Of a stretch of DNA of 64,000 bases, positions 41,886 to 45,799 are shown piece after piece. The stretch is from Methylotenera sp. (GTDB lineage: Bacteria > Pseudomonadota > Gammaproteobacteria > Burkholderiales > Methylophilaceae). Position numbers and translations under genes: made by a program. The stretch is from NCBI GenBank assembly GCA_013141075.1, contig JABFRQ010000005.1, forward strand, positions 186,001 through 250,000, read 5' to 3'. Within the stretch, counting starts at the first letter, position 1. Every line of letters starts with the position of its first letter. The notes beneath the pieces are model-generated. The model was not told the origin of the DNA and made no database searches. It saw only the letters and a program-made list of their open reading frames with translations.

Positions 41886-43325
41886 TCAATAATGTATTCT
41901 TCTAAGCCAATTATAAGTCGCAGTGTTTTTTGTCTCATTTGCAATAAATCTTGCATAATGAACAAGAGAACCTTTTGCTGTGACTGTATATACGTCTCGA
42001 TTGAATTCATCATCTGTAGATGAGTCCTCGATAGATTTACTTAATATCCCTAATTTTACTAAATTTCGTAGCCACTTCTCAAATGTAGATTGTGTTATTT
42101 GCACTTTGCTATTAGAACTAAATGAATCAAAATCTCCAATTCCAAAAGTACCTTTATAGTTATCACTCATTGCTATATCTAAAACAAGCCATGTATCTTG
42201 TGGTATTCGCGAAGATAAAGTTCTGTAACTATCTTTAGTTACTTTTGGCAACCAGTCTTTGAATCTTTTTTCTTTTTGCTCTTCAGTAAGGTCTAATTTA
42301 CCAATATTAAAATGATGTTCACAATATTCATCTGCTAAATTTAATAAATCACGCAAATTTGAATTAATTATTATATAAAGCGTTGTTAAATCCTGAAGTC
42401 TAATAGGTAAACAGTTTTCCATGTTGTCTGTGCCCATTGCAAACTCTTTTAATCGAGTCTTAATTAACGGTTCGATATGACTCTGAGTAATATTTTGTAC
42501 ATCGATAATAGGCGTATTTAAAAACGAACCCAATCTTGGCGAGGCTGCTAAACTATGCACAACTCCATTTGCTCCGCAGAATACCCAACGCAAGCCATTT
42601 ACATTAAATAATTTATCACGCAACCCCTCAAGAGTTCTCCGAGCCGCGGCTCCTGATTCAAGCAACTCAAGATTATCAATCACACAAACAACACCACCAT
42701 TTCCTTGTACTGAAAAAATTTCATTCAGCCATTTTCGTACTAACTGCTCGAATCCTTCTTGTGAAAAACCCGCACTCGTGTTTGTTTGTTTAGTTGTAGT
42801 TGTTGAACTACTCAATGTTGAACTTGCTACTAAAGGAACTCCAGCATTTACAGCCCCCCCTAAAGTATCGTTTATCAATTCCACAATAGGAGAATTTAGC
42901 CAAGCATTCACATGCTCTAGATTTGTTCCAGAAAAACTAAATGACTTAAGCTGTTCTCTATGCGCTAATAGACCATTAGCTACTTTTCTGAATACCCTAT
43001 CACAGAAATCATTAACATTGTCATCCTTAGCTAATTGAAACGACTCACTTAGTGGAACCAATAATTGAGTCGTTTCTCCATGAAGAAAAGCTTGGAAACA
43101 ATCATAGGTGGCAACATTCACTAAACTAGTTTTACCAACTCCGACATGTCCGTCCAAACAAGTTATTTTTCCATGTTTATGAAGCCTTTGTGCAACAAGT
43201 TGTACTTGTTCATCTCGCCCCACTAGAAGTCTTTTGCCAACTTCATTTGCTCCTAACGCATGAATCTTGAAAGGATTTTCTTGAAGACCTAGTGCAGCAT
43301 AACAATCATATTCTATTGAATTCAT
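41886..43325 (-). CDS. Orphan AAA/STAND-like ATPase with predicted C-terminal helical region
   Basis: This 479-aa P-loop ATPase has Walker A GHVGVGKTS at residues 59-67 and Walker B VVCVIDNLE at 212-220, with a hydrophobic strand before it. A sensor-like RWVFCGANG follows at about 246-254. There is a Ser/Thr-rich stretch at 168-184. The C-terminal third (LLNLADEYCEHHFN, TQSTFEKWLRNLVKLGILSKS) may be a winged-helix. The DNA is AT-rich and the gene has no obvious operon mate. It is not a recognised named family; it could be a defence-type ATPase or a regulator. ATG is at 43325. Confidence 0.7.
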   Translation of the reverse strand: MNSIEYDCYAALGLQENPFKIHALGANEVGKRLLVGRDEQVQLVAQRLHKHGKITCLDGHVGVGKTSLVNVATYDCFQAFLHGETTQLLVPLSESFQLAKDDNVNDFCDRVFRKVANGLLAHREQLKSFSFSGTNLEHVNAWLNSPIVELINDTLGGAVNAGVPLVASSTLSSSTTTTKQTNTSAGFSQEGFEQLVRKWLNEIFSVQGNGGVVCVIDNLELLESGAAARRTLEGLRDKLFNVNGLRWVFCGANGVVHSLAASPRLGSFLNTPIIDVQNITQSHIEPLIKTRLKEFAMGTDNMENCLPIRLQDLTTLYIIINSNLRDLLNLADEYCEHHFNIGKLDLTEEQKEKRFKDWLPKVTKDSYRTLSSRIPQDTWLVLDIAMSDNYKGTFGIGDFDSFSSNSKVQITQSTFEKWLRNLVKLGILSKSIEDSSTDDEFNRDVYTVTAKGSLVHYARFIANETKNTATYNWLRRIHY

Positions 43326-43498: not shown

Positions 43499-44290
43499 TT
43501 ATTTCTGTTTAACCGCGCTAATCATGCCTTCTTGCAACCAAGTTGCCAGATACTGTGCCGCTGTCGTCATTGCTTCCTCCTCATCCATCTCACATTCTAA
43601 ACTCTCACAAACCTCACCAAACGTTGCACCAGCCATCGCCATATTTAAGGCAATCACTTCCATTTCAGTAACCAACCTAAATTGTGAATTGAATTTTTTG
43701 CGCCAAATAAGCCATGATTGATAAGTGCTTTCTTGTGCGGGTTTTGTTGGGGTTTCATCGGCCTCTAGCGCTTGCCAAATGGGGATGGTATTCCAGCGGG
43801 TGCGCACTATTTTAATGGCGGGTTGAAAGGTAAAGCTTAGGTCAGCCCAGTTTTCTGGCGGAATTGTGGCTAAGTCTTGCAAAGTTAATTCTGGTACATC
43901 TTCTGCATCAAAAGCTAAAGATAGTGTCCATTCAAAGTCTGCCATTTCGGCGGCGATTGGGTGTTGCGGTAGTGTTGTAAGCAAGTGCTCGCGCATTTGG
44001 TTGCCGTACCAACGTAAGTTTCTGTAAGTAGATGGGTAGGCGCTAATGTATTCACGCGCGATGTTATCAAACAACACGTCGCCCAATAAGGCGTTTAGCT
44101 TTGGGTAGGCAGTGGCGAGGGCTTCGATTATGCGTAATCGGTAGGCATTGTGATAAATACTCAGGCGTTTTTTTGCACCTACTTTTTTATCGTCCACTAC
44201 GGCTTCAATAAAGCTTGTGCCTTGTGCGTCATCCAGCAAATAGGCTTGAAAATCTGCTTGTAATTGGGCTAAATGATTCATTTTAGGCAT
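43499..44290 (-). CDS. bufC: DUF2063 protein, BufC/HvfC-like partner of the MNIO enzyme
   Basis: This 263-aa protein has an N-terminal DUF2063 domain (LAQLQADFQAYLLDD, LSIYHNAYRLRIIEALATAYP), typical of the partner that binds MNIO enzymes in TglI/HvfC/BufC-type pairs. In known systems the partner positions the precursor peptide on the enzyme. The C-terminal part is unrecognised but conserved-looking (FEWTLSLAFDAEDVPEL). It overlaps the preceding bufB-like gene by 8 bases, so the two are coupled. The name is given by context and homology of type, not by a search. Confidence 0.85.
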   Translation of the reverse strand: MPKMNHLAQLQADFQAYLLDDAQGTSFIEAVVDDKKVGAKKRLSIYHNAYRLRIIEALATAYPKLNALLGDVLFDNIAREYISAYPSTYRNLRWYGNQMREHLLTTLPQHPIAAEMADFEWTLSLAFDAEDVPELTLQDLATIPPENWADLSFTFQPAIKIVRTRWNTIPIWQALEADETPTKPAQESTYQSWLIWRKKFNSQFRLVTEMEVIALNMAMAGATFGEVCESLECEMDEEEAMTTAAQYLATWLQEGMISAVKQK

Positions 44291-45173
44291 GCCCTGCGAC
44301 CCGCATGGATATTGGCTCTACGGGTGTAATATTAGGGGCATGCACCTTTTGTGCTATTTTTCTAGCAATTTCTAATTCTTCAACCAAAACATCTAATTCT
44401 GGCATGTTGTCATCGCGCTCTATCATAGTAGAAACCGCGCCCAGCTTGGCAATGGTGTATTCGTATAAATCCCACACAGGGTCTATTACTGGCGCATCGT
44501 GGGTATCAATAATATAATCGCCATTATTTTGATGCCCAGCTAAATGAATTTGCTGCACGCGCTTGGCTGGCACGCCGTCAATAAAGGTTTTAGCGTCAAA
44601 ATTGTGGTTGTAGCTGCTCACGTAAATGTTGTTTACGTCTAGCAGCAGCAAACAATCGGCTTTCTCGGCAATTAAGCTGATAAATTCCCATTCGCTCATG
44701 GTGGAATCTACATAGCTGGCATAGCTGGAGACATTTTCTAGCAGAATTTGGCGGCCTAGATAATCTTGCACAATTTTTACGCGCTCGGCGACGTGTTTGG
44801 CGGTTTCTTCTGTGTAGGGCAGCGGCAATAAATCGTGCATATTTTGGCCGTGAACGCCTGTCCAACATAGGTGATCAGAAATCCACGCGGGTTGAATACG
44901 ATCTGCCAGTTTTTTTAAATCGCGCAAATAAGCTTGGTCAAATGGCGTGGTAGAGCCAATGGAGAGTGAAACGCCATGCATCACAACTGGGTAATCTGCA
45001 CGAACTTTATCTAAAAAGTGCAGTGGTTTACCGCCTGGCACCATGTAGTTTTCTGAGAGCACTTCAAACCAATCTACTTTTGGTTTGGTTTCAATAATTG
45101 GGTGGTAATGTTCTGTGCGCAAGCCTAAGCCAAAGCCTAAATATGGCAAATCAATATTTGATTGTTTTTTCAT
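44283..45173 (-). CDS. bufB: MNIO-family enzyme (DUF692), BufB-like RiPP-modifying oxidase
   Basis: This 296-aa protein belongs to the multinuclear non-haem iron-dependent oxidases. It starts GFGLGLRTEHYHPI and carries the metal-binding pattern of the family: His in VVMHGVSLSIG, WISDHLCW, Glu in ILLENVSSYA, Asp/Asn in LLDVNNIYVSSYNHNF, and the late QIHLAGHQNN and IERDDNMPEL. Relatives modify cysteines in RiPP precursors (for example to oxazolone or thioamide or thiooxazole rings). It is directly followed by the partner gene and preceded by two cysteine-rich precursors, so it very probably acts on them. Confidence 0.9.
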   Translation of the reverse strand: MKKQSNIDLPYLGFGLGLRTEHYHPIIETKPKVDWFEVLSENYMVPGGKPLHFLDKVRADYPVVMHGVSLSIGSTTPFDQAYLRDLKKLADRIQPAWISDHLCWTGVHGQNMHDLLPLPYTEETAKHVAERVKIVQDYLGRQILLENVSSYASYVDSTMSEWEFISLIAEKADCLLLLDVNNIYVSSYNHNFDAKTFIDGVPAKRVQQIHLAGHQNNGDYIIDTHDAPVIDPVWDLYEYTIAKLGAVSTMIERDDNMPELDVLVEELEIARKIAQKVHAPNITPVEPISMRVAGHA

Positions 45174-45207
45174 GTACTGTGAGTTAAGCTTAAATTTCCA
45201 CTGAAAA

Positions 45208-45239
45208 AATAAAGGCTCACGCTCCTGTGAGCCTTTATT
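45208..45239 (-). terminator. Terminator/attenuator between precursor and MNIO genes
   Basis: A perfect 13-bp stem AATAAAGGCTCAC / GTGAGCCTTTATT around a 6-base loop is followed on the minus strand by a T run. It stands 10 bases after the first precursor's stop and 34 bases before the bufB start. Partial termination would give much more precursor than enzyme. Confidence 0.85.
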
Positions 45240-45249
45240 TTGCTAGTGT

Positions 45250-45516
45250 TTACTTCTCTAGTGTGCCGCCTTTTGCCGCACAATCTTTAGCAGTGGTTGA
45301 TGTAAAACCGATGCCTTTACAAACGTTTTGACCTTTACAAGCATTGTCTGCAGTTTTACAGTCACTAGTGCCTTTGCATGCGTTAATACCTACACAGTGA
45401 ACTTTAGCTTCCATCGTTTTTTCTGCGCTGAATGCTAAGCCAGATTGAATAAGTGCCGCAGCGCCTAATGCAATCATCGCGCCTGTGCGCATTTTATGTT
45501 GAATATTGGCATTCAT
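45250..45516 (-). CDS. Bufferin-like cysteine-rich RiPP precursor 1
   Basis: This small protein (88 aa) has a Sec-type signal ([23 protein letters not shown]) and a core with six cysteines at 41, 47, 53, 60, 66 and 79, in a repeating CxGxNxCKG / [17 protein letters not shown] pattern. The arrangement matches BufA-like precursors of MNIO enzymes. It is probably secreted to the periplasm, where modified cysteines could bind copper or another metal. The next gene upstream is a closely similar copy, so the pair looks like a duplication. Metal specificity is not established here. Confidence 0.88.
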
Positions 45517-45532
45517 AATAAATTTCCTTTAA

Positions 45533-45799
45533 TTAAATAATAGTACCGTGCTTGGCGCTGCAATCCGCCGCTGACATGCCTAAGAAGCCATGACCTTTAC
45601 ATACGTTTTGACCTTTACAAGCATTTTCTGCCGTTTTGCAATCACTAGTACCTTTGCATGAGTTTACGCCAGCACAATGCACCATTTCACCACTTGCTGC
45701 TGTTTTATTCATCGTGCCAGCACAGCCAGATAATATAAGCGCGGCCGCGCCAATGGCTAATAATGTACCGCTACGAACTGTAGGTGTTTGAATAGACAT
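45533..45799 (-). CDS. Bufferin-like cysteine-rich precursor 2 with lipobox
   Basis: This 88-aa protein shares nearly the whole core with the first precursor: cysteines at 42, 48, 54, 61, 67 and 80 in the same spacing. Unlike it, the signal region ends in LILSGCAG, a lipobox with Cys26 as the likely lipidation site. So one copy may be soluble and the other anchored to a membrane. The start at 45799 is the first gene of the operon, and the gap between the copies is 16 bases. Function as a metal-binding peptide is inferred. Confidence 0.85.
   Translation of the reverse strand: MSIQTPTVRSGTLLAIGAAALILSGCAGTMNKTAASGEMVHCAGVNSCKGTSDCKTAENACKGQNVCKGHGFLGMSAADCSAKHGTII

Follow-up and report, generated by a model that had tools for sequence, protein, structure and literature searches.

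Why should a single pair of maturation enzymes be encoded next to two precursor peptides that carry the same cysteine-rich core behind different export signals? This question is raised by a four-gene operon in Methylotenera sp., located in a stretch of 64,000 nucleotides, the whole of which is here called the window. The operon is read from the minus strand, and all four open reading frames, two for Cys-rich precursors beside the MNIO and DUF2063 genes, were found where they had been predicted. The features are:

45533..45799, minus strand: bufA2-lipo, 88 residues, predicted lipoprotein signal peptide, six-Cys core from Cys42; NF050166 97.3 bits (cut-off 60)
45722..45739, minus strand: predicted lipobox L-I-L-S-G-C of bufA2-lipo, residues 21-26, +2 residue Ala (PROSITE-like rule)
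45250..45516, minus strand: bufA2-Sec, 88 residues, predicted signal-peptidase-I-type signal, core Cys41-Cys79; NF050166 94.5 bits (cut-off 60); orthologues at L003/L032 (G006) and L035
45206..45241, minus strand: inverted repeat/hairpin in the gap from bufA2-Sec to bufB, -25.2 kcal/mol for the 76-nt gap
44283..45173, minus strand: bufB, MNIO (DUF692) maturase; NF050167 392 bits (cut-off 310); PF05114
43499..44290, minus strand: bufC, partner protein with DUF2063 and a predicted RRE-like fold; PF09836 77 bits (cut-off 27.2)

Because the whole operon is encoded on the minus strand, bufA2-lipo comes first in the direction of reading and bufA2-Sec is the one that adjoins bufB; the original prediction had numbered the precursors by plus-strand coordinates, so that its "first" and "second" change places. 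Its description of the copies themselves stands, with six core cysteines from Cys41 to Cys79 in the copy at 45250-45516; the copy at 45533-45799 has Cys26 in LILSGC and, from Cys42 on, a corresponding six-Cys core. Both cores follow the pattern C-x3-N-x-CKG-x3-C-x4-N-x-CKG-x3-CKG...C, with six cysteines and four Cys-Lys motifs each. The precursor genes are 16 nt apart, 76 nt separate bufA2-Sec from bufB, and bufC and bufB overlap by 8 nt. As read from the sequence, a ribosome-binding-like AAAGGAAA lies close 5' of the start in both precursor genes and no AAAGGAAA-like sequence is present near the ATG of bufB, a difference that fits a low dosage of the enzyme.

By its sequence the operon is of the BufA2 bufferin type, a kind already known, and the lipo/Sec precursor pair makes it a variant. 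The assignment is not a matter of chance, as the precursor and BufB scores are over the NCBIfam cut-offs, and the predicted bufferin-type operon was borne out by these family scores, by the alignment of BufB with a solved DUF692 protein and by the fold of BufC. BufB has ERDDN at residues 252-256, with Asp255 at the reported substrate-selecting site; aligned to it, the DUF692 structure 3bww reads ERDFN. Gadgil et al. give Phe at the site after the catalytic ERD in Lys-Cys MNIOs and Asp in Cys-Lys MNIOs (PMC13097082). The window BufB thus bears the mark of a Cys-Lys enzyme, which agrees with the four Cys-Lys motifs in each core. The AlphaFold model of BufC (pLDDT 94) matches the folds of 3dee (NGO1945; E 1.8e-6) and 8hci chain A (TglHI holoenzyme), with weak matches to RRE proteins such as 6jx3 and 5v1v (E 0.1-1), and together with the PF09836 score over cut-off this points to a DUF2063 domain fused to an RRE-type domain. 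Fold comparison was used here in place of sequence comparison, where the best match of BufC to solved structures (E 0.18) was not credible; the NCBIfam HvfC model scored BufC below its cut-off (41.9 vs 142 bits).

The assembly (90% complete) has two BufA2 matches, both at this operon, and a second MNIO elsewhere that falls below the BufB cut-off. Across the genus, 40 of 52 genomes including that of the window match the BufB model, 6 of them over the cut-off (G000:C1:625102-625902; L168-L191); EGKCG-like precursors stand beside 16 of the 24 such loci examined, and at 3 of them a strong fold follows the stop codon of the precursor. The loci compared below come from a contig scan of relatives (95 stretches, 84 relatives, 80 kept) and from searches of 1,751 genomes, drawn evenly rather than exhaustively, mostly as matches over the family cut-off. 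The closest relatives of the window are from Methylotenera and other Methylophilaceae. The BufB tree places one bufferin locus (L055) within the group of Legionella, although its contig bears the label of a Bacteroidetes MAG; this contig is probably mis-binned.

Lipoprotein bufferins and tandem precursors are both known. About 16% of the Buf2 bufferins are predicted lipoproteins by SignalP (Antoine et al. 2025, PMC12452194), and tandem precursors were reported in the same paper. Its Buf2/BufA2 group (Buf_6/12Cys) shares with the window the six-Cys precursor, the N-terminal export signal, the MNIO and the DUF2063-RRE partner, but in the parts of that paper available to us no lipo/Sec pair in one operon is described. 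The RiPP-lipoproteins DybA and NedA (PMC12636315) resemble bufA2-lipo as MNIO-modified peptides on a signal-peptidase-II signal; triacylated NedA was isolated after expression in E. coli, and a subset of bufferins is among the RiPP-lipoproteins predicted there. Their cores are of the chryseobasin and oxazolin type, whereas the window has the Cys-Lys BufA2 core, and the portion of that paper at hand describes no soluble partner copy. The captophorins, fontiphorin and the Cys-Lys group (PMC13097082) are like the window type in the expected installation of 5-thiooxazoles by an MNIO with a DUF2063-RRE partner, and in the MNIOs of this group, as in the window BufB, the residue beside the catalytic Asp is Asp instead of Phe. 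The worked example in that paper is an EGKCG repeat peptide, unlike the window precursors, and its main text contains no word beginning with "lipo". For a lipo/Sec pair in one operon we found no description in the bufferin/MNIO literature, as far as its texts were available in part.

The signal of bufA2-lipo is MSIQTPTVRSGTLLAIGAAALILSGC-AGT, where an n-region with K/R, a hydrophobic stretch and a lipobox L-x-[GA]-C are all present. Its first positive charge is Arg9, and the PROSITE lipoprotein rule asks for a positive charge within the first seven residues, so that Arg9 falls just outside. In bufA2-Sec a Leu replaces the lipobox Cys (Phe in two orthologues), and the three Sec copies all lack this Cys and all have Gln at -3. 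Signal types were called with a PROSITE-like rule on 261 distinct precursors whose cores scored at least 40 (341 records read), giving 60 lipoproteins, of which one (VTAC) probably rests on a core cysteine called wrongly, 195 ordinary signals and 6 transmembrane forms. Cys within the 45 residues before the called core was seen in 7 of the 195 precursors with ordinary signals, by eye five mis-called core cysteines and two over-extended N-termini, and a true N-terminal Cys therefore occurs almost only as a lipobox. None of the 60 precursors classed as lipoproteins has Asp at +2. According to the E. coli rule, a lipoprotein without Asp at +2 goes to the outer membrane, and sorting to the outer membrane is thus indicated for this class. 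The prediction that one copy is a lipoprotein and the other soluble is supported by the rule-based lipobox call and by the relatives, where 17 of 19 distinct Methylophilaceae loci have an S/A/T-G-C lipobox. In another set of loci (L214, L215, L256, L258, L260, L263 and L267) a GAAxSAGAAxAFYG-like membrane segment precedes the BufA2 core in place of a cleavable signal, some of these precursors carrying further N-terminal segments ahead of it; these forms are perhaps the MerC fusions of PMC12452194.

Within the 17 Methylophilaceae loci with a lipobox, one of which is cut at a contig end and one of which has a broken core, the Sec copy is present in addition to the lipobox copy in three. The remaining two of the 19 loci (L010 and L013) have an ordinary signal only; the BufB of L010 lies elsewhere in the BufB tree and the L013 locus is without BufB. 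In that tree 12 Methylophilaceae rows and one from another family (L118) group together (SH-aLRT 94), comprising 10 lipo-only and 3 mixed loci; near-identical rows with a single signal type had been dropped beforehand, and L203, L225 and L261 are not in the tree. This grouping suggests that the lipoprotein form is likely the older state in this operon line. The emphasis of the original prediction is thereby reversed: the lipobox form is the norm in the Methylophilaceae and the Sec copy an addition to it, and lipidated bufferins had already been published. One carrier of the Sec copy (L035) is sister to a locus without it (L041); either L041 has lost the copy, or the copy has moved. As the Sec copy is found in only three Methylophilaceae loci and is absent from this sister, the pair is dispensable. 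Elsewhere in the family (L015-L018, L031, L034, L036, L037, L040 and L042) an expanded ten-Cys lipoprotein BufA2 replaces the six-Cys form. Of 16 relatives' records, some representing one locus twice, 11 have beside the operon a homologue of the neighbouring gene, which we take to be exonuclease III-like. Between bufC and a transporter-like gene (presumably EamA), a 479-residue protein with weak matches to AAA/STAND-type ATPases is encoded (41886-43325, minus strand); a tblastn search of the 16 records gave no match to it, and it may therefore be an insertion.

Do such mixed pairs recur? There were 23 distinct loci with at least two precursors on one strand, 11 of them mixed and 12 of the same type; L260, with one ordinary and one transmembrane form, was counted as same type, and three truncated precursors were set aside. 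The mixed loci come from perhaps six lineages, namely the Methylophilaceae, a clade of L072, L154, L270 and L308, and the single loci L250, L203 (its two precursors about 2 kb apart), L225 and L261. The four-locus clade is well supported and its single-precursor members are of the ordinary-signal type, and as the Methylophilaceae are of the lipo type, it seems that mixed loci have arisen from either starting type. The pair is kept in G806, in G1182 and in the three Methylophilaceae loci, and is absent in sisters. The frequency of mixed pairs did not significantly exceed chance: 8 of 16 lineages as first counted, against an expectation of 35% (23% lipoproteins overall; p 0.29), or about 6 of 14 when L072, L154, L270 and L308 are taken as one clade. 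Likewise, the lipo copy comes first in 9 of the 11 mixed loci, by lineage 6 of 8 as first counted, which is not significant (p 0.29). Mixed pairs thus recur in several lineages at a frequency in line with chance, and the proposed division of labour between a soluble and an anchored bufferin is a plausible hypothesis. In a genome of the same order (G095; L008, L030, L193 and L194) nine BufA2-like matches with both signal types are spread over several places.

The simplest alternative is that the Sec copy is a tandem duplicate kept for dosage, whose lipobox was lost without any function of its own arising. Its narrow distribution, the chance-level frequency of mixed pairs and the equally common same-type tandem pairs (12/23) are all in line with such ordinary redundancy. 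We nevertheless think it rather unlikely. All three Sec copies group as a single clade of the precursor tree (93/91) and have in common the signal region GAAALIQSG and the C-terminus KGGT[LV]EK. They are also under purifying selection, the whole genes of the Sec orthologues giving dN 0.12-0.21 and dS 1.0-1.2 (dN/dS 0.10, 0.11 and 0.21); over all whole-gene comparisons dN was below dS in nine of nine, although several dS values were close to saturation or beyond it and dS could not be computed for some cores. These observations argue that the Sec form was retained while its sequence diverged. As to its origin, the best match outside the Sec group was for all three copies a Methylophilaceae lipo copy (L004), with Undibacterium precursors scoring nearly as high, which makes duplication likelier than acquisition, though not proven. 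Acquisition from another proteobacterium, for instance of an Oxalobacteraceae-type bufferin with LSG[FLY]AIA, would agree with the close Undibacterium scores and with the unresolved deeper branch of the precursor tree; that Undibacterium BufB lies in another part of the BufB tree speaks, with the L004 match, against it, and we consider it quite improbable.

The hairpin between bufA2 and bufB is a stronger and more general result than the lipo/Sec pair. In the window the predicted fold of the 76-nt gap is a stem of 15 pairs (-25.2 kcal/mol, z -5.5), equalled by none of 200 shuffles. Among 188 loci with distinct precursors, z was below -2 in 137 for the 80 nt that follow the final bufA2 stop codon; upstream of bufA2 this was so in 22 of 188, and within bufB in 13 of 188 and 15 of 187. 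When similar sequences were thinned the hairpin was present in 111 of 139. Divided by the length of the bufA2-bufB gap, which is approximate because the bufB start was placed by motif, the counts were 128/161 (30-200 nt), 5/20 (<30 nt) and 4/7 (>200 nt). Control gaps taken from ORF calls, which may include false genes, gave 11% of 70 same-strand gaps and also just 11% of 80 convergent gene ends, at which terminators would be common. At the homologous gene ends after bufC z was below -2 in 5 of 76, and in the 49 loci shared between the two sets the hairpin followed bufA2 in 39 and bufC in 2. Gaps between tandem precursors had it in 6 of 19, and hvfA-hvfB junctions of the same genus in 3 of 16, from 24 loci examined, a weaker control that is not like for like, since with such short gaps part of the 80 nt falls within hvfB.

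The sequence of the hairpin differs between lineages and most relatives' gaps have one, in L033 beyond the first 80 nt; in L042 (Methylophilaceae, long gap) none was found. In four Undibacterium loci all 52 of 52 cells were paired and 5 of 13 pairs were compensatory, as compared with 0-1 for slid partners. The Legionella hairpins, aligned from 19 listed loci with L065 left out and L053 lacking a precursor match, had 98.7% of cells paired and one compensatory pair only, which is little evidence of covariation. No known RNA family scored over its gathering score; the best, Phe_leader, was on the other strand (27.7 vs 55 bits) and was taken as a generic hairpin match. A mobile-element remnant as the source of the hairpin was not supported by eye, since the stems vary by lineage and the position is kept. 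We found no mention of the hairpin in the literature available to us in part, where the main text of PMC12452194 is without "hairpin", "terminator" and "stem-loop" and the Microbulbifer paper has none either.

What could the hairpin do? If it were a plain intrinsic terminator, the precursors would form one transcript and bufBC would have a promoter of their own under different control. By our own measure a T-rich tail follows 57 of 132 scored hairpins, that of the window among them, which speaks for termination; 75 of 132 are without such a tail, which speaks against it. A consensus terminator scan, moreover, placed the window site on the plus strand only, opposite to the operon, and found no minus-strand promoter-like match between the hairpin and bufB. 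We therefore hold plain termination to be doubtful. With a tail in just 57 of 132 and a plus-strand call only, attenuation and stabilisation of the 3'-end are both possible roles, and the hairpin probably sets the dosage of precursor over enzyme.

Taken together, the explanation that accounts best for these data, and that we hold with some confidence, is that one BufB-BufC pair serves two precursors, an anchored and a soluble copper buffer, with a dosage set by the hairpin. By analogy with characterised relatives, the Cys-Lys cysteines of both precursors, probably four of the six, would be converted to 5-thiooxazoles in the cytoplasm, and both precursors would then be exported by Sec. The bufA2-lipo product would be lipidated at Cys26 via Lgt/LspA/Lnt and, lacking Asp at +2, would reach the outer membrane; signal peptidase I would cleave the bufA2-Sec product, which would remain as a soluble periplasmic peptide. 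Between them the two peptides would take up surplus copper both at the surface of the membrane and throughout the periplasm. The hairpin, whose strong comparative signal speaks for a function, would either reduce transcription of bufB and bufC or make the precursor mRNA more stable, with a stoichiometric peptide in excess over a catalytic enzyme as the outcome. What the sequences themselves show are the genes present, their families, where the lipobox occurs, the trees and the statistics of the hairpin; thiooxazole chemistry, copper binding, acylation, localisation and the role of the hairpin are all inferred here.

A wider reading, which we offer tentatively as a possibility, is that a single maturase pair supplies two compartments with one and the same copper-binding warhead, that signals switch between lipo and soluble after duplication, repeatedly and in both directions, that membrane-bound and free periplasmic buffers could pass copper to the outer membrane or to vesicles, and that a lineage-specific hairpin fixes the ratio of peptide to enzyme across BufA2 operons. 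A pair with the same core, different anchors and one enzyme pair is a ready natural test of what anchoring contributes to copper buffering, and the hairpin at the bufA2-bufB junction offers a concrete, testable account of how these operons may produce a large amount of peptide with little enzyme.
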